12,316 nt of DNA from an uncultured Bacteroidales bacterium (lineage in GTDB: Bacteria; Bacteroidota; Bacteroidia; Bacteroidales; UBA932). Position numbers and translations under genes: made by a program. Of the stretch, positions 61-11,943 are shown in pieces. Within the stretch, counting starts at the first letter, position 1. Each line of letters begins with the position of its first letter. The notes beneath the pieces are model-generated. The model saw only the letters and a program-made list of their open reading frames with translations. It ran no database searches and was not told the DNA's origin. The DNA is taken from contig CABQAB010000031.1 of the NCBI GenBank assembly GCA_902461985.1, positions 1 to 12,316 of the forward strand. The letters are read 5' to 3'.

Positions 61-162
61 GCGCTTCGCTTGGTCGAGATGACATTTGCAAGACTTTTTA
101 GTCAGACCCATGCGCTTCGCTTAGTCGAAATGACAATTCAAGTACTTTGGGGTCGGCCCCTG
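61..162. repeat. Two diverged tandem 51-bp intergenic units
   Basis: Unit A (61-111) and unit B (112-162) begin with the same bases, GCGCTTCGCTT, then (G/A)GTCGA(G/A)ATGACA, a CAAG segment, a CTTT run and a GTC(A/G)G(A/C)CC end. A weaker relative of the core (AGTCGAGACAT) lies at 14-24. Around unit A an imperfect hairpin can be drawn: ATCTC at 51-55 with GAGAT at 76-80, CC at 57-58 with GG at 72-73, and GCG at 61-63 with CGC at 67-69. A perfect 6-bp hairpin, TTGATT/AATCAA, sits at 28-42. I see no coding content in 1-286. GTCGAGATGACA-type intergenic repeats are, from memory, common in Bacteroidales; their function is unknown. Confidence 0.6.
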
Positions 163-1824: not shown

Positions 1825-3936
1825 GTGAAATGGTCTGGCTACAAATATTTTGCTACTATCGTTGCATTTATTCTATTTTCCACGCTCAGTTCTAAAGGAC
1901 AATGGTACTATAACTATAGGTTAGACTCCGGTACTATGCCCCAATATGTGCACGCAGGACCGTTCGTGTCCAAAAATGAATGTGAGGCATCGCGTTCACA
2001 TTTGCTGGCATCTGAAGGACTGGATTTCTCCACTATCGTAGATGGAGGAAAAAACATCAAATGGGAAGCGACACCATGCGTGGGTCCTGCACAAGGCAAT
2101 AATTTTCCTGTTGCAGGAGACCTGTCTTACATGAACAATTACCAACTTCTCGGTGTTGAGCAAGGAATGTCGAGTTTCACATCCAATCCGGCAGAAGACA
2201 TCAGCAATTGGTATCGGGAATGGATGGAAAAATATGAGAACAACATTTCTCCATATGATTTTCCGAATGTCATACAAGTCTATACCGGAGATCATAGTTT
2301 CGATAAAAAATACTATGAACTTGCTTCGAATGAAGAGAATTTCAATACCGGATATTCAGGCATCAGTTATGAAAAACTCAAAGACAAATATTTTATCCCG
2401 ATCAACGCCAACGACAAAGAGAATCTATTAACGGAATTTGCCGACAATGTACTTGTAAACAGGTACATATCACATATCACAGATAACATGATTGACGACA
2501 TCGTTGCACAGCTGCTTGACAGTGGTGACTGGACAATGCTTTCTGATTATGTAATCGAATTATTTGCATCCGCAGCCGGAATAGACATCAGCCGTTTCAG
2601 AGATCTTTTATGCAAAGAATATAATCTCAGCGATAAAGAGAAGCAAATTTTATTTAATTTCTACGGATTCAAGAAAAAAATATATGAAAGGATTGGGAAT
2701 GCCGCCGATAATAAAATAAAGAAAAGTCGTGAGGGGATAAATAAGACCGAATTGGATATGGCTATATTATCTCAAGACTGCTACAAAGACAGCCCTTCAT
2801 TATTACACGACACAGACTATATCAGTGTAACAGACGAGTTCTTCCTGCAACACCCAGAATGGGAAACGACTATGGGTGAAGTCGGAGAAGCCTTGAAGAT
2901 CTTGAATAGCCAGACGAACGGGTTCTATGCTGAACTGTACTATAACGAAATTACTAATGAATTTTCAGTAGCTTTCAGGGGAACCGAAGTCCGATACAAT
3001 GATATCATAACTGATTTATTACAAGCTCAGGGAAAACTGACTGAACAGCACGGGTGTGCATACACATTGGCGGTACTGCTGAAAAGGGCCAAAGACAGCG
3101 GAGTCAAAATCAACATTACAGGACATTCTTTAGGCGGAGGTCTTGCCAGTGTTGTAGGGGCTTTCACCGGATTGCCGACATATACATACAATGCTGCTGG
3201 CATATCCGACAATTCCATCAGGAAATATGAGGAACTCCGCAGGCTGGATGCTGGAGATACAAGGCCAGTGACCCAGGATGATATAGATAAAATCAAACTC
3301 CAGTCACAGAATAATATTACCGCATTCTGTTCGAGTGACGATATCTTGACAAGAGTGCAAGACCGGGATTTTGCATATTTGGCAAAACAATACGGACCAC
3401 TGATATTAAAAAAAACCATAACGGCATTAGGTGACATAATAAATCCAGTCAGTCCAACAATCAAAACAATCAATACCATCAACAAATTTCTCAGCGAGAA
3501 TGAGGTGGATTCATTGAACGACGAGGTGGCATCACAAGAATCCGGACACAATTCGACTGAAACATTGAGTGAGGAAATAATAGAATCTCTTGTCAACTAT
3601 TACATTGAAAAAACGGATATGACAACAATTCAAGGAATCATCAATGCTGCAAACCCTCAAAATCTCGTGACGGATATTGCATCTGACATAGCAAGTGGAA
3701 TAGTTGATCTTGCCTGCAACGCCAATCCGGCGATAGGTAAAAAAACAATTCTGGAGAATGCCGGCACTCATTCCATTAACTCTGTCATTCAAAAAGAGTT
3801 TTCACTGAACGCTGATGCTCAAGAACAGTGGATGGAAGCAAAACGAAAGCAGGAAAAAATAAAAGCCGACATTGAAAATGAAGAAAGTAAACAGACAAGC
3901 AAATCCAAGATGACATTGATAACAATAAAACACTAA
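1825..3936 (+). CDS. Secreted class-3 lipase-like alpha/beta hydrolase
   Basis: I chose the GTG at 1825 because it gives a classical signal peptide: MKWSGYKYF, then the hydrophobic run ATIVAFILFSTL, with cleavage near SSKG/QW. The frame is open upstream to a GTG at 1582, giving 784 aa; numbers below use that longer form. Residues 107-170 form a small domain with the motifs GPFVSKNECEASR and PCVGPAQ (two Cys). Residues 200-390 are of unknown fold. Residues about 390-600 match a Lipase_3/DUF2974-like hydrolase: AILSQDCY, FSVAFRGTE (strand before the oxyanion region) and the nucleophile elbow GHSLGGG with Ser516. Asp586/587 (SSDDILTRV) and His730 (AGTHSINSV) are plausible triad partners. The last 40 residues are charged and probably helical. 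The substrate is unknown: acyl lipids of host, diet or competing bacteria are all possible. It is the first gene of an operon, 8 bp before the next gene. Confidence 0.8.
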   Translation: MKWSGYKYFATIVAFILFSTLSSKGQWYYNYRLDSGTMPQYVHAGPFVSKNECEASRSHLLASEGLDFSTIVDGGKNIKWEATPCVGPAQGNNFPVAGDLSYMNNYQLLGVEQGMSSFTSNPAEDISNWYREWMEKYENNISPYDFPNVIQVYTGDHSFDKKYYELASNEENFNTGYSGISYEKLKDKYFIPINANDKENLLTEFADNVLVNRYISHITDNMIDDIVAQLLDSGDWTMLSDYVIELFASAAGIDISRFRDLLCKEYNLSDKEKQILFNFYGFKKKIYERIGNAADNKIKKSREGINKTELDMAILSQDCYKDSPSLLHDTDYISVTDEFFLQHPEWETTMGEVGEALKILNSQTNGFYAELYYNEITNEFSVAFRGTEVRYNDIITDLLQAQGKLTEQHGCAYTLAVLLKRAKDSGVKINITGHSLGGGLASVVGAFTGLPTYTYNAAGISDNSIRKYEELRRLDAGDTRPVTQDDIDKIKLQSQNNITAFCSSDDILTRVQDRDFAYLAKQYGPLILKKTITALGDIINPVSPTIKTINTINKFLSENEVDSLNDEVASQESGHNSTETLSEEIIESLVNYYIEKTDMTTIQGIINAANPQNLVTDIASDIASGIVDLACNANPAIGKKTILENAGTHSINSVIQKEFSLNADAQEQWMEAKRKQEKIKADIENEESKQTSKSKMTLITIKH

Positions 3937-3944
3937 AATTTGCC

Positions 3945-5108
3945 ATGAAACAACTGACAATCCGGACAACCATATTCTTTACCTGTATCCTGTTTCCGGT
4001 TCTCAATTTTGCACAGACACAACATATGACTCGTGAAATGTGCAGAGACTCGGTGCTGGCAGAGAATTTCGATGCTGCAATCAAAGGATATTCGCGGCTC
4101 ATTCAAACAGAAAAAGAAAACAGGACAAGAAAAAGAGGCGTAGAAGCCGACTTGGTCGCAGAATATGCCTATGCCCTTGCTTTGGATTCCATAACTGACA
4201 GGGCTCTGGCGACTATTGACCTTGCCAGATCAATGGAAGCGGGTCATGCGGATTTTTATACAGCGCAGATATTTGAGTTACTGGGATTTCATGAACTCGC
4301 CGGAACATTCATGAATGGAGCTGAGATTCCGAAATGGATTGAATCTTCATATCAGGACATCGCCATCCGTCACAGAGTCCATCTCATTTCAAGTGACAAC
4401 GACATGAAATCTGCATTCATAAAGGCCAATGTATTGACGAAACAAAAGCAGTATGTCCAGGCAATAATTAAATTTGAGGAGATTACGGACAACTATCCTA
4501 CATCATACATGCCATATATTGGATACAGCACCACATTAGAAAACCTCGGCATGTATGGTGAAGCCGCTGATAAACTGCAGCATGGTCTTAATCTGATAGG
4601 ACAAAGGGATTCATCCACAACGGCAGTTTTACAAAAACATCTCGATGGCCTGAAAATCACCATTGCCAGAAAGACCTCTCCAAATTTCTTTGAAAGAATA
4701 TCAGACAAATATGAGCCATCATTTATGTTGTACGCCGGAGGATCCGCCGGGAAAAACAATCTATCGTTAAATGGCAGATTGGGCTTCTTCACAAAGAACA
4801 AATTCAGCGGGACACTGAACCTCGGCTATTCCTATATTTCCAAGGACAATGCATTCAATATCGGAATAGCAGCATATCAAATGATCAATATATTTGTCGT
4901 CGGGCTGGGCATCAATGAACAAATCAGTAAAAACAGCACATTCAGTATATCGCCATCGGTCGGGATATCCTTAATGAACCAAAAAGGCAATGCTTCATAT
5001 GACATTATGTGCAACCTTTTTATTCCTTGTAAAAGAGGTCATTTGCTCAGTTACACTATTTCATTCGGCAGGACATACTATTTTAATTTTAACCCCAAGA
5101 AAAAATGA
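3945..5108 (+). CDS. Exported TPR protein with C-terminal beta-barrel-like domain
   Basis: This is a 387-aa protein with a signal peptide at residues 1-23 (cleavage near NFA/Q). Residues about 37-235 are helical with TPR-like units; the clearest are around 36-56 (AENFDAAIKGYSRLI) and 163-215 (KQKQYVQAIIKFEEI, then LGMYGEAADKL). From about 257 to 384 the sequence alternates in the manner of antiparallel membrane strands (SFMLYAGGS, LNGRLGFF, FSGTLNLGYSY, NIGIAAY, FSISPSVGIS) and ends in an aromatic strand before basic residues. I infer an outer-membrane anchored scaffold whose periplasmic TPRs bind a partner, perhaps the lipase or the next protein. It starts 8 bp after the lipase stop and overlaps the next gene by 4 bp (ATGA), so translation is probably coupled. 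I do not recognise a named family. Confidence 0.75.
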   Translation: MKQLTIRTTIFFTCILFPVLNFAQTQHMTREMCRDSVLAENFDAAIKGYSRLIQTEKENRTRKRGVEADLVAEYAYALALDSITDRALATIDLARSMEAGHADFYTAQIFELLGFHELAGTFMNGAEIPKWIESSYQDIAIRHRVHLISSDNDMKSAFIKANVLTKQKQYVQAIIKFEEITDNYPTSYMPYIGYSTTLENLGMYGEAADKLQHGLNLIGQRDSSTTAVLQKHLDGLKITIARKTSPNFFERISDKYEPSFMLYAGGSAGKNNLSLNGRLGFFTKNKFSGTLNLGYSYISKDNAFNIGIAAYQMINIFVVGLGINEQISKNSTFSISPSVGISLMNQKGNASYDIMCNLFIPCKRGHLLSYTISFGRTYYFNFNPKKK

Positions 5109-5917
5109 AACCTGAGACATACTTGACCCTATCAGTATTATTGGCTGCCGTCTCCAATATTGCCATCGCACAAAATGCCGGACGCCGCAATGACATCCAT
5201 GTATATTCTGATTCTACAATAGTAAATTACATAGCAGGGGGAAGAGTTGAAGACGGAAAATTATATCTTATTGCAGACAATGCCTACGACAAACTGACTC
5301 AAAAAGAAAAAAGCATTCTCATGCATTCTTTGACAGATTCTTTAACAACAGACAATATAGTTGTAAATACAGAAACCGAAATAGAATTATGGACAAGAAG
5401 CGACACTTCAGCATTTCAGTTGACCTTCACTTGGGATGCCGACAATTCAAACATTGAGAAATACAAACCACTCTCCATCCAGAAATCGGGTATAGACCGT
5501 ATGTTCTGGTATGCAGGTGGAAACATCCACGGGACTAAAGGAAACTTTAACGGTTCAATCAATCTGAGAATTGGAACATATCTGTACAAGAATTACGTTG
5601 ATTGTTCCATAACCTCGGACTTAGGTTTAATGAGTGCTTCCGGTGGCACCAGTTTTTCCGGCAACATCGGGATAATGGGACGAGGCAGTTTTCCTATTCC
5701 CATCCCAAAAGTCCCCATAGCTCCTTATGGCGGCATAGGATTAAACTTGAACTTTTCTCCAGAAGTATATTTTGAAATAGTAACATACACCGGCATAAGT
5801 CTCTATATAGGTCCGGGCAGTATTGACATAGGATTTCAATACGGACTGAAAAGCAAGTTCTCGGCCACTTTTGGATACACATTCCGTCCGCAATTCAGCA
5901 AACGAAAAACTAAATGA
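5105..5917 (+). CDS. Small predicted outer-membrane beta-barrel protein
   Basis: This is a 270-aa protein with a signal peptide at residues 1-22 (AIA/Q). Residues 30-125 form a soluble region of mixed helix and strand. Residues about 134-262 contain repeated amphipathic strands (MFWYAGGNI, FNGSINLRIGTYL, DCSITSDLGLM, FSGNIGIMGRG, YGGIGLNLNF, ISLYIGPGSIDIGFQYG) and end with FSATFGYTFRPQF, a typical outer-membrane barrel ending, before a basic tail. It overlaps both neighbours by ATGA, so three consecutive genes are translationally linked. The barrel-like half resembles that of the preceding TPR protein, so the two may assemble together. Its function is unknown. A transport role for the lipase is possible, but the barrel looks too short for a large export pore. 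Confidence 0.7.
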   Translation: MKPETYLTLSVLLAAVSNIAIAQNAGRRNDIHVYSDSTIVNYIAGGRVEDGKLYLIADNAYDKLTQKEKSILMHSLTDSLTTDNIVVNTETEIELWTRSDTSAFQLTFTWDADNSNIEKYKPLSIQKSGIDRMFWYAGGNIHGTKGNFNGSINLRIGTYLYKNYVDCSITSDLGLMSASGGTSFSGNIGIMGRGSFPIPIPKVPIAPYGGIGLNLNFSPEVYFEIVTYTGISLYIGPGSIDIGFQYGLKSKFSATFGYTFRPQFSKRKTK

Positions 5918-6780
5918 GACGAATTATAATAATTTCAGCAATACTCAGCTGTTATGTGTTATGCCCGGCACAGGAAGTCGAGTGTGACACTGCATTGAAA
6001 ACAAAATGCATCCATTTTTGGGATAAATATAATTTCCGCGACACCACACCACTGCAGACCCCAAAAGTTATACTGGATTTCATCTATTTGCTTTCAAACA
6101 TAGAACTCAACACGGCACAAGAATGTATCCGAAACGTAATGGACAGGGCGTCTTATTCCCCTGAAATCTACTCGGCATTCGCATGTTTATTTGAAAGATA
6201 TCTATATAATACTGATTCCTGTTTCAGGAATGACGAACTATACATTCCTGTACTGGAACATATCATGTCATCCGCAACCATTAACGATTCAGCAAAAATA
6301 TCCTGTCGGAATCTCCTTGAACATCTCTGCAGAAACAGAATAGGCGAACGAGCATCAGATCTAACAATAACGCTGCGGGACAGTGACTGCATCCAGTTAC
6401 ATGAAATCAATGCCACCTATATTATACTATTGTTCCACAATCTTGAGTGCAGTGTTTGCAGACAGGCGATAGCAGACATTATGAATTCTGAAACAATAGT
6501 TTCAATGCAATATCAGGATGAACTGAGAATTATCAGTATATACCCGGGAGAAGATATTCAGCAATGGGCAAAATCAAGATTTCCGGCATCATGGTTAAAC
6601 GGGTACGACAGTTATAATCAGATAAGTCAAAACGCTATCTATTACATCAGACAATATCCGACCTTGTACCTTTTGGACCAGGACAAAACTATTCTGATAA
6701 AAGACAGATCTTTCAGTGAAATCGAGAATTATCTCATGGATAAAAAACAAGGAGGAAGCCGAAAATCCTTAAAAGAGTAG
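5914..6780 (+). CDS. Periplasmic thioredoxin-like protein, DUF5106-like N-terminus
   Basis: This 288-aa protein has a signal peptide at residues 1-19 (CPA/Q). An alpha-helical, Cys-containing N-terminal part spans about 20-140, as in Bacteroidetes DUF5106 thioredoxins. The thioredoxin-like domain starts near 146 (ASDLTITLRDSD). Strand beta-1 (YIILLFHNLE) leads to the CxxC pair Cys179-Ser-Val-Cys182, and the cis-proline region is at 248-250 (QYPTLYLLD). The CSVC active site, with Glu in place of the usual Trp in front, suggests a disulfide reductase or isomerase rather than a general thioredoxin. The N-terminal half has about eight further Cys, which is high. The ATGA overlap with the barrel gene and the MauE-thioredoxin gene downstream point to a shared redox role, probably reducing or sorting disulfides in proteins of this operon. 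Confidence 0.8.
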   Translation: MRRIIIISAILSCYVLCPAQEVECDTALKTKCIHFWDKYNFRDTTPLQTPKVILDFIYLLSNIELNTAQECIRNVMDRASYSPEIYSAFACLFERYLYNTDSCFRNDELYIPVLEHIMSSATINDSAKISCRNLLEHLCRNRIGERASDLTITLRDSDCIQLHEINATYIILLFHNLECSVCRQAIADIMNSETIVSMQYQDELRIISIYPGEDIQQWAKSRFPASWLNGYDSYNQISQNAIYYIRQYPTLYLLDQDKTILIKDRSFSEIENYLMDKKQGGSRKSLKE

Positions 6781-6805
6781 GTACAATTAAAACATTATTA
6801 CGCTT

Positions 6806-7033
6806 ATGAAAAAAGCAATTTCAATCATTCTGGCCGCTACGGCAATTCTCATCAGTGCGGCGTCCTGCACCAAGAACATCACTTGCAAATGTGTTGTCGA
6901 CATGGGCGAATACGGCAAATCCGAATCGACAATTGAAGTCGAAGGAAAAAGTTGCTCAGAAGGAAATTCCACTACAACAACTACTGCAGCCGGCATGACA
7001 GTTACAGTCAAAACAACATGTGAGAAGATTTGA
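6806..7033 (+). CDS. Small Cys-rich lipoprotein
   Basis: This is a 75-aa protein with a clear lipoprotein signal. MKK is followed by the hydrophobic run AISIILAATAILI, then the lipobox SAASC with the lipidated Cys at residue 21. The mature part, about 54 residues, has four more Cys at 27, 29 (a CKC motif), 50 and 72, and a Thr-rich patch (TTTTT, 56-60). Four Cys in such a short exported protein suggest two disulfides, or a CxC redox site. It begins 25 bp after the thioredoxin gene and is followed by a strong hairpin. I recognise no family. Given its neighbours it may be a substrate or a carrier of the thiol relay; this is inference. Confidence 0.75.
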   Translation: MKKAISIILAATAILISAASCTKNITCKCVVDMGEYGKSESTIEVEGKSCSEGNSTTTTTAAGMTVTVKTTCEKI

Positions 7034-7059
7034 TTTAGTTGCCGGACATTCAAGAGGTC

Positions 7060-7090
7060 GGCTAAGAAGTCATTTTATGACTTTTTAGCC
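7060..7090 (+). terminator. Strong hairpin after the small lipoprotein gene
   Basis: GGCTAAGAAGTCAT (7060-7073) pairs with ATGACTTTTTAGCC (7077-7090) across a TTT loop. This gives 14 consecutive pairs with one G-T wobble. The downstream sequence (AGCCTCACAC) lacks a T-run, so it may be a processing or stability element, or a partial terminator, rather than a complete stop. It separates the first five genes of the cluster from the MauE-like gene 50 bp further on, for which I see no clear promoter of its own. Confidence 0.65.
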
Positions 7091-7139
7091 AGCCTCACAC
7101 ATTTCAAATTGCAAACAGACTCTCCGAATATATAGTCTT

Positions 7140-8102
7140 ATGGTCAAATTCAAGTGGAGATATATTCCAAAACTGGTACTTGGCGTTCTTTTTTGTATTT
7201 CGGCGATACTTAAAGCAGTATCTGTCGAACATTTCGAATTATATATTTTCTCTCTAAGCGTGACGAGTTATGATGTATCTTCGATTCTCGCACGACTGCT
7301 TATAAGTTTTGAACTCCTGCTTGGAATAGGACTCATATCCAATTGCTATCACAGGCCCGTAACAATCCTGTGCGCTCTTTCTCTAATTCTCTTCAGTGCT
7401 TTTCTTATCTGGCGCATAACTTTAGACGACAGCACTAATTGCCATTGTTTCGGAGATATAATAGAACTTAAGCCGTCAGAATCCATTATCAAAAACATCA
7501 TATTCTTCCTATTGCTGATACCGGCATGGAAAAACGACATTTATAGCCATACGCCAAAATTATGGATCACGGGATTGGCAATCACAGCCGTAACAACTTC
7601 CGTATTTTTAACATTGCCGCCGGATTGTTTACTCAGGAATCACCGGAACGCCTCGCAAGAGATAAACAACTCGCTTTTGTGCGATTATCTTCATGTGAAT
7701 CAGCTTGACAGCGGAATACATATGCTTTGCTTCTACAGCACTGATTGTCCATATTGTCACAATTGTGCCGGGAAAATTGCCGGAATAATATCCAGAAACA
7801 ATGTCCCGATGGAGAATATTCTCGTCGTTTTCATGGACAAGGGTGAAAACAAAACTGCAAAAGACACATTCTTCGACAAATACGGACTTGGACTGCATGT
7901 AAACTACACATCTCTGTCACCGTTGGATTTTATACCACTGACGAATGGTTCCATGCCCTTGGTAGTCATCATCAAAGACAGCACAATCTTAAAGGAATAC
8001 GATTACATAACAGTGGATGAAACAGAAATAGTATCACTAATAGGAAAACACCGGCAGGGAGCCAGCCAAACTGATGCGGCCGGCTCCCTTCTCAATAGAT
8101 AA
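7140..8102 (+). CDS. MauE/DoxX-like redox membrane protein fused to a periplasmic thioredoxin domain
   Basis: In this 320-aa protein, residues about 8-130 contain four membrane helices of MauE/DoxX type (PKLVLGVLFCISAILK, SILARLLISFELLLGIGL, VTILCALSLILFSAFLI, IIFFLLLIPAW). A CHCFGD motif at 101-106 matches the CxCFG signature of this family. A fifth helix (about 141-158) crosses to the periplasmic side. The C-terminal domain (about 180-300) is thioredoxin-like: LCFYSTDCPYCHNC, with CxxC at 203/206 and an extra Cys at 209, and a cis-Pro segment SMPLVVI. MauE-like proteins are thought to move reducing equivalents across the membrane for disulfide chemistry in exported proteins. Here the fusion would deliver electrons directly to a periplasmic thioredoxin and on to the other redox genes of the cluster. 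The last 18 codons overlap a terminator-like hairpin. Confidence 0.8.
   Translation: MVKFKWRYIPKLVLGVLFCISAILKAVSVEHFELYIFSLSVTSYDVSSILARLLISFELLLGIGLISNCYHRPVTILCALSLILFSAFLIWRITLDDSTNCHCFGDIIELKPSESIIKNIIFFLLLIPAWKNDIYSHTPKLWITGLAITAVTTSVFLTLPPDCLLRNHRNASQEINNSLLCDYLHVNQLDSGIHMLCFYSTDCPYCHNCAGKIAGIISRNNVPMENILVVFMDKGENKTAKDTFFDKYGLGLHVNYTSLSPLDFIPLTNGSMPLVVIIKDSTILKEYDYITVDETEIVSLIGKHRQGASQTDAAGSLLNR
8057..8088 (+). terminator. Terminator-like hairpin overlapping the 3' end of the MauE-thioredoxin gene
   Basis: GGGAGCC (8057-8063) pairs with GGCTCCC (8082-8088). An inner GCC (8065-8067) pairs with GGC (8078-8080) after one A/C mismatch. TTCTC follows, and the later TTGATTTGTTGCTTT is only moderately T-rich. 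The stem lies within the final codons, so the protein's last residues (about QGASQTDAAGSLL) are terminator-encoded. The hairpin could also act on transcripts coming leftwards from hipA, since the two units converge here. Confidence 0.5.
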
Positions 8103-8122
8103 CAGTTGATTTGTTGCTTTGA

Positions 8123-8184
8123 TGCGCCGCTATTCCAGGCCGCAGGCGCGGAGAAGCGAGGACGGGTCTGGGGCTGCGCCACGG
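8123..8184 (-). pseudogene. Stand-alone duplicate of the dcp 3' end (left direct repeat)
   Basis: These 62 bp match 9811-9872, inside and just after dcp, at 57 positions with no gap. On the minus strand they read RGAAPDPSSLLRACGLE and then TAG, against RGAAPDPSALLRARGLK and TAG in intact dcp. Three of the five mismatches change an amino acid (A to S, R to C, K to E), as expected for a non-functional remnant. The match starts 7 bp beyond the stop codon and ends 4 bp before the hipA stop. The hipBA module therefore lies between two direct copies of the Dcp C-terminus. Confidence 0.85.
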
Positions 8185-8188
8185 GATA

Positions 8189-9292
8189 CTAAAAGAAGTC
8201 ACCTGCCAGCAATTTCCCGACTATGCTGCGAACCTCATCGATAATACCGACACACCTTGATTTCGGAATGCGTATCTCAGTTCCTGCCTTGATCATATCC
8301 TTTTCCGAAGGGTTTCCGCTTCCACAGACAGAAGTCGCATGCTCTCCATTGTAGCCGTCGGCCGAGCGGGTCAAATCATAAGCCGGAGCAAGAGACCAGA
8401 TGCCGTTCTTGCAGATGAACGCAAAATTCTTGGCATGGTCATCCTTGTTTTCCGCAAGCACATTGAAAACCATCCTCCTGAACATTTCCTCGACCTGCAT
8501 TGGGTCTTGCGTCAGATAGCCAGTCAAGTGCAGCAAATTGACATAATCCAATTTCGGAAAATGGATTGACTCGTTCATCAGAGCACCGGCAGTTGCCACA
8601 TGAAGTCTTTCCCCGTCCTTGACATCGAATCGGCGTGAGGCGAAATATTTCCCGTCTATAAGTTTGAAATCAGGGACCTCTATCCCGCAGGCACGAGCAG
8701 CCACATTGTAGCCGTACTCCATTATGCCCATATCCTCAGGGTCGGAAATGTTACGGAACTTCACAAGCCACTCCCCTTCCGCATCCTTCATCAGGCATTT
8801 GGGACGGCATCCGCCGGAGTTACCGCTGTTGAAATAGAGGACATCGGCGTCTTTGTCGGACTTTTCGGACAGGACGTCAAACGCCATACGCTGAAGTTCG
8901 TCAAGCTGCGGAAGGGATTTCTCCTCACCTATGAAAGATTCCGGGACATAGCACAGGGCTCCCATCCCCGAACTGCCGACTATGCTCAGATACTGGACCG
9001 GAGAGAGTCTTAGAGAATCAAGGCCCTTCCTTTTGAGAATCCGATGGATCAGATAGCGTCCGTAGCCGTCCGGGATACTGTCATCGAAAACACCGAAATT
9101 TCCTGCGAACGGAGTCCTTTCGGCAATGAAAAGCTCGTCTTTAAGAGGAAGGTAGAGCGGAGACACGGAAAAGCCGTCCCTCAGCCAGTCATTGTCATAC
9201 TGAAAAGCACAACGGTCTCCTTCCGGAACCATCGTGAGCCTTCCCACAATACGGCCATGATACATTACGTTCAAGACACCCGTGATTTTCAT
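8189..9292 (-). CDS. hipA: HipA-family serine/threonine kinase toxin
   Basis: This 367-aa protein is a HipA toxin. E. coli HipA phosphorylates and inactivates glutamyl-tRNA synthetase; the target here is unknown. Residues about 1-115 are the N-subdomain (FDDSIPDGYGRYLIHRIL, then LSIVGSSGMGAL). A Gly/Ser-rich loop at 155-163 (NSGNSGGCR) corresponds to the region autophosphorylated at Ser150 in E. coli HipA. The HipA_C kinase core contains WLVKFRN (Lys178, probable ATP ligand), the catalytic loop ENKDDHAKNFAF (Asp284/285, His286, Asn289) and the metal-binding Asp306 in APAYDL. All key residues are present. The protein is shorter than the 440-aa E. coli enzyme but keeps both N- and C-domains. 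It lies 23 bp after hipB on the same strand, the usual antitoxin-first order, and ends against the dcp remnant. Confidence 0.93.
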   Translation of the reverse strand: MKITGVLNVMYHGRIVGRLTMVPEGDRCAFQYDNDWLRDGFSVSPLYLPLKDELFIAERTPFAGNFGVFDDSIPDGYGRYLIHRILKRKGLDSLRLSPVQYLSIVGSSGMGALCYVPESFIGEEKSLPQLDELQRMAFDVLSEKSDKDADVLYFNSGNSGGCRPKCLMKDAEGEWLVKFRNISDPEDMGIMEYGYNVAARACGIEVPDFKLIDGKYFASRRFDVKDGERLHVATAGALMNESIHFPKLDYVNLLHLTGYLTQDPMQVEEMFRRMVFNVLAENKDDHAKNFAFICKNGIWSLAPAYDLTRSADGYNGEHATSVCGSGNPSEKDMIKAGTEIRIPKSRCVGIIDEVRSIVGKLLAGDFF

Positions 9293-9315
9293 TCAGAAGA
9301 TTTTTTTTAGAAATT

Positions 9316-9636
9316 TCAAAACTGCTTCCTGGTCACCCCCCTCTTTCTGTCTTTGTTGCCCTTGATTTCCTCAAGTTCCGACATCGTGGAATACTTCGCG
9401 GCAGACATTACAGACTTCAGATTCGAGATATAATCAAGAGATTGGCACAAAGCCGCATAGGATTCCAGAGAAATCTTATGCTCAGTTTCAAATCTCGCGA
9501 TTGTAGGAACAGGGACTCCAGAACGTTCCGAAACGGCTTTTCTGGAAAGCCCCTTCTCCAGACGGCGCTTCCTGAAATCCGATGCCATTGAAGACAGCAC
9601 CGAAGAAAGCGACTCTGTATATAAAGAATAAATCAT
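9316..9636 (-). CDS. hipB: HipB-like XRE-family antitoxin
   Basis: This is a 106-aa DNA-binding protein. A Cro/C1-type helix-turn-helix occupies about residues 20-72: FRKRRLEKGLSRKAVSERSG for the first helices, then VPVPTIARFE as the recognition region and SLESYAALCQSLDYI. A flexible basic tail follows (KGNKDRKRGVTRKQF), as in HipB proteins, where the C-terminus contacts HipA or is degraded. By family knowledge it should neutralise HipA and repress its own operon. A 24-bp inverted repeat over the predicted start of transcription (9670-9693) is the likely operator. The ATG at 9636 is used; Met17 (MASDF) is a possible later start that would still keep the whole HTH. Confidence 0.9.
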   Translation of the reverse strand: MIYSLYTESLSSVLSSMASDFRKRRLEKGLSRKAVSERSGVPVPTIARFETEHKISLESYAALCQSLDYISNLKSVMSAAKYSTMSELEEIKGNKDRKRGVTRKQF

Positions 9637-9669
9637 ACTATTATATCTCCAATCCTCGTTTATAGACTA

Positions 9670-9693
9670 CAAATCATAATATAGTATCATTTG
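9670..9693. promoter_or_regulatory. Probable HipB operator (24-bp inverted repeat)
   Basis: The half-site CAAATCATAATA (9670-9681) and its partner TAGTATCATTTG (9682-9693) are complementary at 10 of 12 positions with no spacer. The repeat sits directly downstream of the -7 box of hipB, where a bound repressor would block initiation. Position and symmetry fit HipB autoregulation. Confidence 0.6.
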
Positions 9694-9724
9694 CAAATAT
9701 AATCAAAAGCATCCGGAAATGCAA
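9694..9724 (-). promoter_or_regulatory. hipBA promoter
   Basis: On the minus strand, TATATTTG (9701-9694) is a perfect TAnnTTTG -7 box. TTG (9724-9722) is a plausible -33 element separated by exactly 20 bp. The start of transcription would be near 9687, about 50 nt before the hipB ATG. Confidence 0.65.
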
Positions 9725-9736
9725 TTGAGAACGGCC

Positions 9737-9794
9737 AATAAGACTTGATATTCCGGTTCACAACATTGTGGACCACAATCTTGTGAACCGGAAT
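9737..9794. repeat. Palindromic box array (copy 2) forming a 45-bp near-perfect palindrome
   Basis: Three 13-bp units at the same 15-bp period as copy 1 lie at 9751-9763 (TTCCGGTTCACAA), 9766-9778 (TTGTGGACCACAA) and 9781-9793 (TTGTGAACCGGAA). Together 9750-9794 is a palindrome centred at 9772, with 14-bp perfect outer arms and one C/C mismatch pair at 9764/9780. The left flank AATAAGACTTGATA (9737-9750) matches copy 1 apart from one base. The repeat lies between the dcp stop and the hipB promoter; as RNA it would form a very stable hairpin in the dcp 3' region. Confidence 0.8.
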
Positions 9795-9796
9795 CA

Positions 9797-9817
9797 AAGA
9801 GGAACGGCGGTGCGCCG
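9797..9817 (-). terminator. Possible intrinsic terminator of dcp
   Basis: On the minus strand, directly after the dcp stop, CGGCG (9817-9813) pairs with CGCCG (9809-9805) over a CAC loop. TTCCTCTTTG follows. The left duplicate of the dcp end keeps only the stop-proximal arm of this stem, because the duplication boundary falls in the loop. Confidence 0.45.
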
Positions 9818-9872
9818 CTATTTCAGGCCACGGGCGCGGAGAAGCGCGGACGGGTCTGGGGCTGCGCCGCGG
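9811..9872 (-). repeat. Right direct repeat: native 3' end of dcp
   Basis: This is the intact partner of the 62-bp copy at 8123-8184, offset by exactly 1,688 bp, with 57 of 62 identities and no gap. It covers the last 18 codons of dcp and 7 bp beyond the stop. Recombination between the two copies would excise hipBA and array copy 2 and leave one dcp end. Confidence 0.85.
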
Positions 9873-11911
9873 AAACGCTCATAAAGCACCATCGGTTCTT
9901 CCGAGCCGCCGGCTTCGAGGATGTTGTGCTTGAATGAGGCGGCTGTCTCTGAATCGAAGATTCCTTTTTCCTTGAACAGTTCGAAGGCGTCCTTGTCCAG
10001 AACTTCGGCCCAGAGGTAGCTGTAATAGCCTGCACTGTAGCCGCTGTTGAAGATATGATTGAAATAGGTTGTGCGGTAGCGTGGGATAATCTCGTCAATC
10101 AGCCCCATCTCACTGCAGACCTGAGCCTCGAATTTCTCAATGTCAATCAGCCGCATGGACTCGTCATCAGGGCAGACAGTCTCCGAAGCGAGAGGCGAAG
10201 ACGCCGGCACATAGACAGACCGAAGTTCATGCCATTTCATGTCAAGTATGGACGCCGCAGCCAGTTCAGTGGTCATAAAGCCCTGGTTGAAAGTGCCGGC
10301 GGCAACAATTTTCTTCACTAATTCGTCCGGAATCACCTCCCCGCTCTCATAGTGGAAAGCGTAGGTGGCCAGAACCTCAGGCTGAAACGCCCAGTTCTCG
10401 TTGATCTGCGAAGGAAGCTCCACGAAATCACGTGCTACGGACGTTCCGCTCACACCGGCGTAATGACACTTGGTAAGCAGACCGTGCAGTGCGTGACCGA
10501 ACTCGTGGAACATGGTGCCCACCTCGTCGATAGTCAGAAGGGACGGTGTATCCGCAGTCGGTCTGGTGAAATTGCCCACATTTACTATAATCGGACGGAT
10601 GTCGTTGCCTGCCTCATCCACATACTGCTCGCGTATATTGTTCATCCATGCGCCTCCCCTCTTGGTGCTGCGCGGATAGTAGTCCGTGGTAAGAATGCCG
10701 AGCAGAAAACCGTCAGAAGCATCCGAAACCCTGAACACCTCTACGTCCGGATGGTATTTCGGAGCGTCTGCAACCGGCTCGATGGTCAGTCCGTACAGCC
10801 GGGAAGCATTTTCGAACACGCCGGCGCGGACATTCTCCATCTTGAAATACGGACGGGTCTGATTCTCGTCAAGGTCGAACTTCTCCTTGCGGACCTTCTC
10901 GGAATAATAGGCCCAGTCCCAAGGCTCGATCCGGCTTCCGGCGGGCAGCAGACCTGCTTCGACATCCTTGTCCATAGCCCTCTGGAGGTCTTTCAGTTCC
11001 GCTTTGGCCTTGGCGACTGCCGGACGGACAATGCCTGAAAGGAACTCGTCCACTGTCCTGGAATCACCGGCCATCTTGTCCGCAAGTATGAAGTCGGCAG
11101 GAGTGTCATAACCTAAAAGACGTGCTTTCTGCTGACGAAGTTCGAGAATCCTTAGGAGCACTGTCCTTGTGTCGTTGTCACCGCCGTTCGCGCCACGGGT
11201 CGAATATGCCCTGAACATACGTTCTCTCAAGTCCCTGTCGGCACATTCACCCATTTTGGAGGCATATTCTGAAATGCTGATGCCGAATTCGGACGCAAAA
11301 GCATTGTTCTCCGCAAGCAGTTTAGTTCCGAACGACTGCTCTGCAACAGCAAGTTCGGAATTTATAGCCCTTATCTTCGCCTGGCCGAGAGAATCCAGAG
11401 CCACACCGTTGTTCACGAAAGCCCTCCAGGTCTTGTCCAGGAGCATTTTCTGTTCCCGTGTAAGCCCGTGCGCATCACCGTTGTCCTCGGCCACGGAAGC
11501 GTCTGCCCAGACTTTCTGAACCCTGTCGAACAGACCGGGATTGAGATAGATGTTGCTCGCATGGTCGGAAACCAGCGGAATCACCTGCTCGACGATGCTC
11601 TGGAGTTCCGGAGTCCCGTCTGTTTCAGCCAGATTGAAAAGCACGCCCTCGACCCTGCCGAGCAGCGAGCCGGAACGGTCCAGCGCTGCTATAGTGTTGT
11701 CGAAGTCCGGAGTTTCGGAGCTGTTCACGATTGCCCCGATTTCCTCATTCTGGAGTTCAATACCTCGCCGGATGGCGGGCAGATAGTCGGAATTATGTAT
11801 CTTTTCAAAAGGCGGAATGCCATAAGGAGTGTCCCATTCGGCGAAGAAGGGATTTTCGCGGCATCCGGCAAGAGCCAGAACAGCAGCCATAATCATAATT
11901 ACTTTTTTCAT
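9818..11911 (-). CDS. dcp: Peptidyl-dipeptidase Dcp, M3 metallopeptidase, lipoprotein form
   Basis: From the ATG at 11911 this is a 697-aa M3 zinc peptidase that removes C-terminal dipeptides. The zinc site is HEFGH at about residues 469-473, with the third ligand Glu about 25 residues later in FVELPSQINENW. The C-terminal substrate-binding signature (FNHIFNSGYSAGYYSYLWAEVLDKDAF) is intact, and the ending RFRGAAPDPSALLRARGL is the normal family end. The N-terminus MKKVIMIMAAVLALAGC is a lipoprotein signal with Cys17, so the enzyme is probably membrane-anchored in the periplasm, unlike the cytosolic E. coli form. A TTG in frame at 11926 would add five residues ahead of the signal and is less likely. 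Base composition is clearly more GC-rich than the genes to the left, fitting a core gene beside accessory DNA. Confidence 0.95.
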   Translation of the reverse strand: MKKVIMIMAAVLALAGCRENPFFAEWDTPYGIPPFEKIHNSDYLPAIRRGIELQNEEIGAIVNSSETPDFDNTIAALDRSGSLLGRVEGVLFNLAETDGTPELQSIVEQVIPLVSDHASNIYLNPGLFDRVQKVWADASVAEDNGDAHGLTREQKMLLDKTWRAFVNNGVALDSLGQAKIRAINSELAVAEQSFGTKLLAENNAFASEFGISISEYASKMGECADRDLRERMFRAYSTRGANGGDNDTRTVLLRILELRQQKARLLGYDTPADFILADKMAGDSRTVDEFLSGIVRPAVAKAKAELKDLQRAMDKDVEAGLLPAGSRIEPWDWAYYSEKVRKEKFDLDENQTRPYFKMENVRAGVFENASRLYGLTIEPVADAPKYHPDVEVFRVSDASDGFLLGILTTDYYPRSTKRGGAWMNNIREQYVDEAGNDIRPIIVNVGNFTRPTADTPSLLTIDEVGTMFHEFGHALHGLLTKCHYAGVSGTSVARDFVELPSQINENWAFQPEVLATYAFHYESGEVIPDELVKKIVAAGTFNQGFMTTELAAASILDMKWHELRSVYVPASSPLASETVCPDDESMRLIDIEKFEAQVCSEMGLIDEIIPRYRTTYFNHIFNSGYSAGYYSYLWAEVLDKDAFELFKEKGIFDSETAASFKHNILEAGGSEEPMVLYERFRGAAPDPSALLRARGLK

Positions 11912-11943
11912 ATTCTTATATTTCAATTGTTTCTAAACTACTC

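Follow-up and report, generated by a model that had tools for sequence, protein, structure and literature searches.

Integrative islands at the 3' ends of genes and transfer RNA genes depend on a tyrosine recombinase, are bordered by direct repeats, and preserve a working gene end. A different type, insertion with long target duplication, has reportedly been described for restriction-modification genes by Nobusato et al. in 2000 and by Furuta et al. in 2010. According to excerpts of PMC3874152, restriction-modification genes insert with long, variable target duplications on the order of 100 bp. Excerpts of PMC3031569 and PMC1643837 contain the same concept, and the excerpt of a toxin-antitoxin review (PMC2654758) cites the Nobusato et al. 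2000 work on Helicobacter pylori for restriction-modification systems. Here we analyzed a hipBA toxin-antitoxin pair that lies between two direct copies of the 3' end of the peptidase gene dcp, in a stretch of 12,316 nucleotides from an uncultured Bacteroidales bacterium (GenBank assembly GCA_902461985.1, contig CABQAB010000031.1). This whole stretch is called the window below. The locus bears on the question of how toxin-antitoxin pairs that stand alone pass from one chromosome to another when no mobile element carries them. We propose that hipBA, encoding no recombinase, quite probably entered just downstream of dcp and that its entry duplicated some 62 bases of the target. What is new here is that a toxin-antitoxin module is the cargo of a known insertion type; among the matches listed from the open-licence literature, no title or beginning of an abstract reported a target duplication or flanking direct repeats for hipBA.

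The two copies, R1 at dcp and R2 beside hipA (Table 1), have the same orientation and are identical at 57 of 62 bases without gaps. The initial annotation had given these coordinates and this count, and had stated that both copies encode the Dcp C terminus and its stop codon and that only hipB, hipA, and their upstream region lie between them, with no recombinase. All of this was borne out, the coding content by sequence comparison and the gene content by a Pfam scan. The annotation had also considered that the left copy might belong to a second, diverged dcp paralogue nearby. No such paralogue was found within the window by tblastn with Dcp, which returned dcp itself and a 17-residue tail (82%, E value of 0.001), all other matches having E values of at least 2.6. 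The five mismatched bases fall in four codons and account for changes of A to S, R to C (two bases), and K to E and for one synonymous change; the three nonsynonymous changes counted earlier therefore stand, but as three of four altered codons and not as three of five mismatches.

Comparison with the three closest relatives found (L001 to L003; Dcp 82% identical) indicates which copy is the older end. Ten of the 18 codons (counting the stop) are common to R1 and R2 but occur in none of these relatives. The duplication was therefore made from dcp of this lineage itself, or of one very closely related to it, at some time after L001 to L003 had branched off; codons of this kind would not be expected in an attachment site brought in from a more distant species. 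At all three nonsynonymous sites, the R1 residues match those of the relatives and R2 departs. The amino acid departures are all on R2, so that the left copy is the displaced one. The codon comparison thus supports the earlier view that the dcp end was duplicated around hipBA, with R1 as the working end of dcp and R2 as a displaced, decaying copy. The dcp terminator stem is the hairpin AGCGGCG-CAC-CGCCGTT at 9803 to 9819. It had been noted that the left copy has lost one arm of this stem, which is literally right, but the second arm lies on the inserted side, so that it need not predate the insertion. The motif GCGGCGCA occurs twice in R1 (9811 to 9872), once near one end and once at the opposite end.

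Under insertion with long target duplication, an original order of dcp, R, and left flank would have become dcp, R1, hipBA, R2, and left flank, after which R1 would stay under selection as the end of dcp and R2 would drift. The molecular step may, in the simplest case, have been the capture of a DNA fragment at a break with two nicks tens of bases apart, the overhangs being filled in; an equivalent template switch would give the same product. Only insertions that spare the adjacent genes would survive, which would account for the occurrence of gene ends and hairpins in the repeats, and the addiction property of hipBA would help it to persist. As in long target duplication, long direct repeats flank the window unit and the duplicated sequence varies between insertions; the cargo is hipBA and not a restriction-modification system. 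With tyrosine-recombinase islands the locus shares direct repeats at the 3' end of a conserved gene and a working end that is kept, but its unit is only 1.6 kb, with hipBA alone, no integrase, and no recurring target sequence. As far as the excerpts cited above describe them, restriction-modification insertions are alike in having an addiction-type unit and a long, variable target duplication and in being recognized by comparison of related genomes. They differ in that the cargo here is of the type II toxin-antitoxin kind, the genomes are of Bacteroidales type, and single genes of other kinds (Rpn, KilA-N, ATPase, and RecG-C-like) are found within similar scars. If our reading is true, a mechanism proposed for H. 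pylori restriction-modification genes extends to toxin-antitoxin genes in another phylum. The H47 genomic island of E. coli, in the excerpt of PMC5426353, is likewise mobile and bordered by short direct repeats without encoding a site-specific recombinase; its excision was tested by experiment, whereas the window hipBA is known from sequence alone.

Such excision bears on another account, in which a circle carrying hipBA and the dcp end of a close relative was taken up by a single homologous crossover, moving an already flanked unit into the same site. A flanked unit could indeed excise and reinsert via its repeats, and the excerpt of PMC5426353 describes the excision between short repeats in the recombinase-less island as RecA independent. 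However, the crossover would depend on 62 bases of homology and accounts for spread at one site, not for the first insertion, and no relative with hipBA at dcp was noticed, the dcp loci not having been searched individually for hipBA. We consider this account unlikely.

The most direct evidence for insertion with target duplication comes from another locus, L213. When its genome, G509, was compared with a relative, G612, the two sides of the locus matched one contig and overlapped there by 47 bases. In G612 both neighbour genes are adjacent, with one repeat copy and no hipBA, and the duplication in G509 is about 47 bp. This shows the insertion of a hipBA module of this family, without a recombinase, and the accompanying duplication of the target, and we infer that the window case is the same kind of event. 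In the upstream, displaced repeat copy of L213 (about 2576 to 2623 in hipBA orientation), the hairpin is more perfect than in G612, as if this copy had been taken over as a terminator. A second site, that of L207 and L208, also has counterparts: G572 has a single copy of the repeat, which resembles a miniature inverted-repeat transposable element (MITE), and no hipBA; G516, G526, and G599 have the two neighbour genes with 59, 81, and 94 bases, respectively, between their aligned portions; and G577, by match coordinates, has the same insertion with hipA internally deleted. With a filled and an empty genome and recurring unrelated scars, the question becomes testable, because insertion junctions with different cargo can be read, dated, and set against each other.

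Relatives of hipA were found in 136 of 400 genomes of the genus at an E value of 1e-20 and in 52 of 398 genomes of the family at 1e-80, the two sets overlapping. From these we sampled 70 better loci besides the window (71 hipA copies), leaving several matches with 38 to 40% identity outside the sample; L180, L217, and L218 were excluded from the final count because of short flanks, and 69 copies, the window included, had enough flanking sequence. Up to 600 bases upstream of hipB were aligned locally with up to 600 bases downstream of hipA, and a score of at least 60 was called strong. L176, L177, and L172, whose repeats lie more than 600 bases away on one side or both, were not counted. Strong repeats flank 8 of the 69 copies, namely, the window (score of 99), L207, L208, L187, L191, L221, L178, and L213. 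When flanks of different loci were paired, none of 408 combinations reached 60, the maximum being 35. Without the window, 7 of 68 hipBA loci and 7 of 523 control genes reach the threshold (Fisher P value of 0.0004), and with L207 and L208 taken as one the strong loci are 6 (P value of 0.0016), both P values being optimistic because the genomes are related.

The repeats themselves differ from one insertion to the next. Among the 28 pairs of the eight flanked units, repeats and 40-base unit ends are unrelated save for L207 versus L208. That the ends of the units are not shared speaks against a dedicated transposase, a judgement based on just eight units. Repeat lengths are 62 bases in the window, 47 to 86 at L213, L221, L178, and L191, 132 to 185 at L207 and L208, and 215 to 229 at L187, where the sequence is unexplained. 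The hipA stop codon is 1 to 60 bases from the second copy in seven of the eight units and 201 bases from it in L178. At L191 a gene that converges on hipA contributes its 3' end to the repeat, together with an adjoining hairpin arm; at L213 the repeat consists of the last codons of one gene plus a hairpin and overlaps the coding sequence of a convergent NUDIX-like gene at its 3' end. The L221 repeat is apparent coding sequence at a gene end, the two sides having been read apart, and the L178 repeat is coding sequence of a downstream open reading frame (ORF). In L191, both sides carry the hairpin that borders the repeat (around 3210 to 3250 and 5125 to 5165 in locus coordinates), but with its loop inverted, and the last hipA residues are apparently encoded by it.

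The initial annotation had favoured site-specific integration with dcp as the attachment site, and this was not borne out: the repeats and 40-base ends of the other units are unrelated to those of the window, there is no recombinase, and no target recurs. In an ungapped 60-base test, the best second dcp copy in 80 other dcp loci matched at 35 of 60 positions, compared to 55 of 60 in the window. A repeat screen of all 81 loci, window included (1.47 Mb, 26 repeat pairs), together with gapped alignment, revealed that in L066 the dcp end recurs with its terminator, as a copy of 81 bases (about 85%) beyond a 345-amino-acid RecG-C-like gene; the ungapped screen had passed over this degenerate copy (34 of 60). 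The annotation's proposal to look for other cargo at the same target was thus answered by one match, but a duplicated dcp end is known in just 2 of 81 loci. In 29 loci gpmI is near dcp, with 9 to 266 bases between the genes in 10 and 1.1 to 8.7 kb of other DNA in 19. None of the 19 long gaps has a duplicated dcp end scoring 60 (the best, 44 in L006, is a palindrome match), and several contain ordinary-looking genes. In its strict form, dcp as an integration hotspot is not supported, neither by the ungapped screen nor by the long gpmI gaps.

A tyrosine recombinase acting in trans on a small nonautonomous island, with an attachment site that mimics the dcp 3' end, would fit a repeat at the 3' end of a conserved gene that is left intact, and the second dcp-end scar with other cargo in L066 could be taken the same way. 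We nevertheless find it quite improbable, because the repeats at the other flanked hipBA units bear no relation to the one at dcp, the dcp end is so rarely duplicated, R1 and R2 carry the lineage's own codons and do not look imported, the G509/G612 pair of filled and empty sites is at a nonmatching sequence, and the unit is without a match in phage and plasmid records. Likewise, viral contigs contained no relative of hipA and no instance of the 21-base repeat pattern. Alternatively, the dcp end may first have been duplicated in tandem, perhaps through slippage between the paired GCGGCGCA motifs of R1 described above, with hipBA arriving later between the copies. This is very improbable, as G612, the partner of the one hipBA site with an empty counterpart, contains a single copy and not a tandem pair. 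On this evidence the insertion reading is well supported and the site-specific integration reading is not.

Several observations weigh against insertion with long target duplication. Five of 584 random positions also score at least 60, and seven control genes do so as well, so that such repeats are not unique to hipBA. Conversely, 61 of the 68 other hipBA loci have no strong flanking repeat; their scars may be old and decayed, or another route may have been used. The unexplained repeat of L187 and the dispersed element of L207 and L208 may have arisen otherwise. No clean empty site was found for L191, L221, or L178 in the 81, 60, and 81 genomes searched, respectively. For the window itself, dcp followed by R and the left flank was present in none of the 80 dcp loci; in the near relatives G001 to G003, gpmI lies beyond dcp, and six of the seven left-flank proteins, including the MauE-like neighbour, are without a match in these 80 loci. 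The empty-site comparison of the window is therefore without a partner, and this is the main weakness. The left-flank ATPase matches L021 (28%) and L056, where it lies upstream of dcp, and G003 has a MauE-like gene (42% identical) on a different contig from dcp. Moreover, many of the loci come from metagenome assemblies at draft stage, and genomes that are related do not count as independent.

Similar scars surround other cargo. The repeat screen and the high-scoring controls gave a narrow set of genes: RAYT-like genes, ATPase_2, KilA-N, Rpn/PDDEXK, and RecG-C-like genes. The seven control genes scoring at least 60 are L053 (ATPase_2), L055 (KilA-N), L066 (RecG-C-like), L039 (weak Y1_Tnp), L060 and L079 (RAYT-like by eye, no Pfam match), and L177 (Rpn-like by eye); an Rpn/PDDEXK gene in L050 has a flank score of 59. 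The names NUDIX, SGNH, Dct, and RAYT were given by eye or recall, not by family search. The screens also gave repeats ahead of outer membrane- or lipoprotein-type genes and some within ORFs. L055 (KilA-N, 7171 to 8227) and L050 (Rpn, 7021 to 8249) share one intergenic position in the chromosome but differ in cargo. In both, the cargo stands between two copies of a terminator-like hairpin, each locus having its own, downstream of the gene that precedes; L060 has one match to such a hairpin there (about 4644 to 4692). For KilA-N in L055, an empty partner was not found in 150 genomes, the other cargo not having been searched. The scars of L066, L055, L050, and L053 would be insertions of the same kind as that of hipBA. 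Tentatively, and with more doubt than confidence, we suggest that solitary genes of the toxin-antitoxin, nuclease, and defence types (hipBA, Rpn, KilA-N, AAA ATPases, and RecG-C-like genes) are spread through Bacteroidales by a common route that needs no transposase, each entering by a gene end or terminator, duplicating tens to more than 100 bases, and so leaving the neighbours their ends. Rpn-type nucleases could supply the break. In the excerpt of PMC5350276, E. coli Rpn recombination-promoting nucleases raise RecA-independent transfer, and independent rpnC insertions at one place are inferred. The likeness is the presence of an Rpn gene within a scar of this kind in L050; the difference is that nothing seen here indicates that Rpn makes hipBA insertions.

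Palindromes are present in the window too. The one at 9750 to 9794 was found in none of 50 other hipB upstream regions scanned, five of which have other inverted repeats, and a role as a general hipB operator or element end was rejected on this ground. Nested palindromes of one family lie at 172 to 246, just upstream of an AAA ATPase gene, and at 9736 to 9795; in L056, matches to the same ATPase (70% and 54%) have a 30-base exact match to the palindrome a short way upstream. This family seems to accompany the ATPase, so that the palindrome ahead of hipB may be a remnant of such an ATPase. Movement of repetitive extragenic palindromic (REP) elements by a RAYT-type transposase, with hipBA as passenger, could draw on this palindrome, on the MITE-like repeat of L207 and L208, and on the RAYT-like genes between palindromic direct repeats (which are probably their own), but it was already unlikely for the window and deserves hardly any credence, since the 62-base repeat is mostly dcp coding sequence with the palindrome outside it, the palindrome is absent at 50 other hipB genes, and the unit has no Y1 gene and no REP-type repeats at both ends.

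With HipA kinase domains and an adjacent gene for a helix-turn-helix antitoxin, the window hipBA can be classed as a predicted type II toxin-antitoxin pair (Table 1). A hipB match adjoins hipA in 50 of 50 relatives of the first set (tblastn), and none was found for 4 of 20 later loci. The top NCBIfam match of the window dcp is peptidyl-dipeptidase Dcp, under the cut-off of that model. Promoter-like matches are not above chance in the stretch scanned (4 versus 2.3 expected). The hairpin left of R2 possibly served as a shared terminator of the site before insertion.

Table 1. Features of the window around the hipBA insertion
Feature	Coordinates	Strand	Description
MauE/DoxX-like gene	7140..8102	+	Pfam MauE, 2.2e-16; convergent with dcp, far side of insertion
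Hairpin, one stem mismatch	8056..8089		Between MauE-like gene and R2; inverted repeat +99..133 past hipA stop
Repeat copy R2	8123..8184	-	Displaced dcp 3' end; 4 bases past hipA stop; all three amino acid changes
Inserted unit between R1 and R2	8185..9810	-	1626 bases: upstream region, hipB, hipA
hipA, toxin kinase gene, 367 amino acids	8189..9292	-	Pfam HipA_C, 5.7e-41; Couple_hipA, 2e-15
hipB, antitoxin gene, 106 amino acids	9316..9636	-	Pfam HTH_3, 8.9e-8
hipB upstream region	9637..9810	-	Nested palindrome 9750-9794 and one promoter-like match
Repeat copy R1	9811..9872	-	Last 17 dcp codons, stop, and 7 bases beyond; functional copy; 57/62 to R2
dcp, M3 peptidase, 3' end duplicated	9818..11926	-	Pfam Peptidase_M3, 4.1e-124

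Two further features lie elsewhere in the window. An Rfam DUF805b RNA match (6749 to 6783, E value of 1.5e-13) overlaps the 3' end of a DUF5106/thioredoxin-like ORF, just before the next small ORF. A dispersed sequence at 1460 to 1782, with matches of 83% and 74% in G002 and 77% in G003, spans the start and upstream region of a lipase-like ORF of 784 amino acids.

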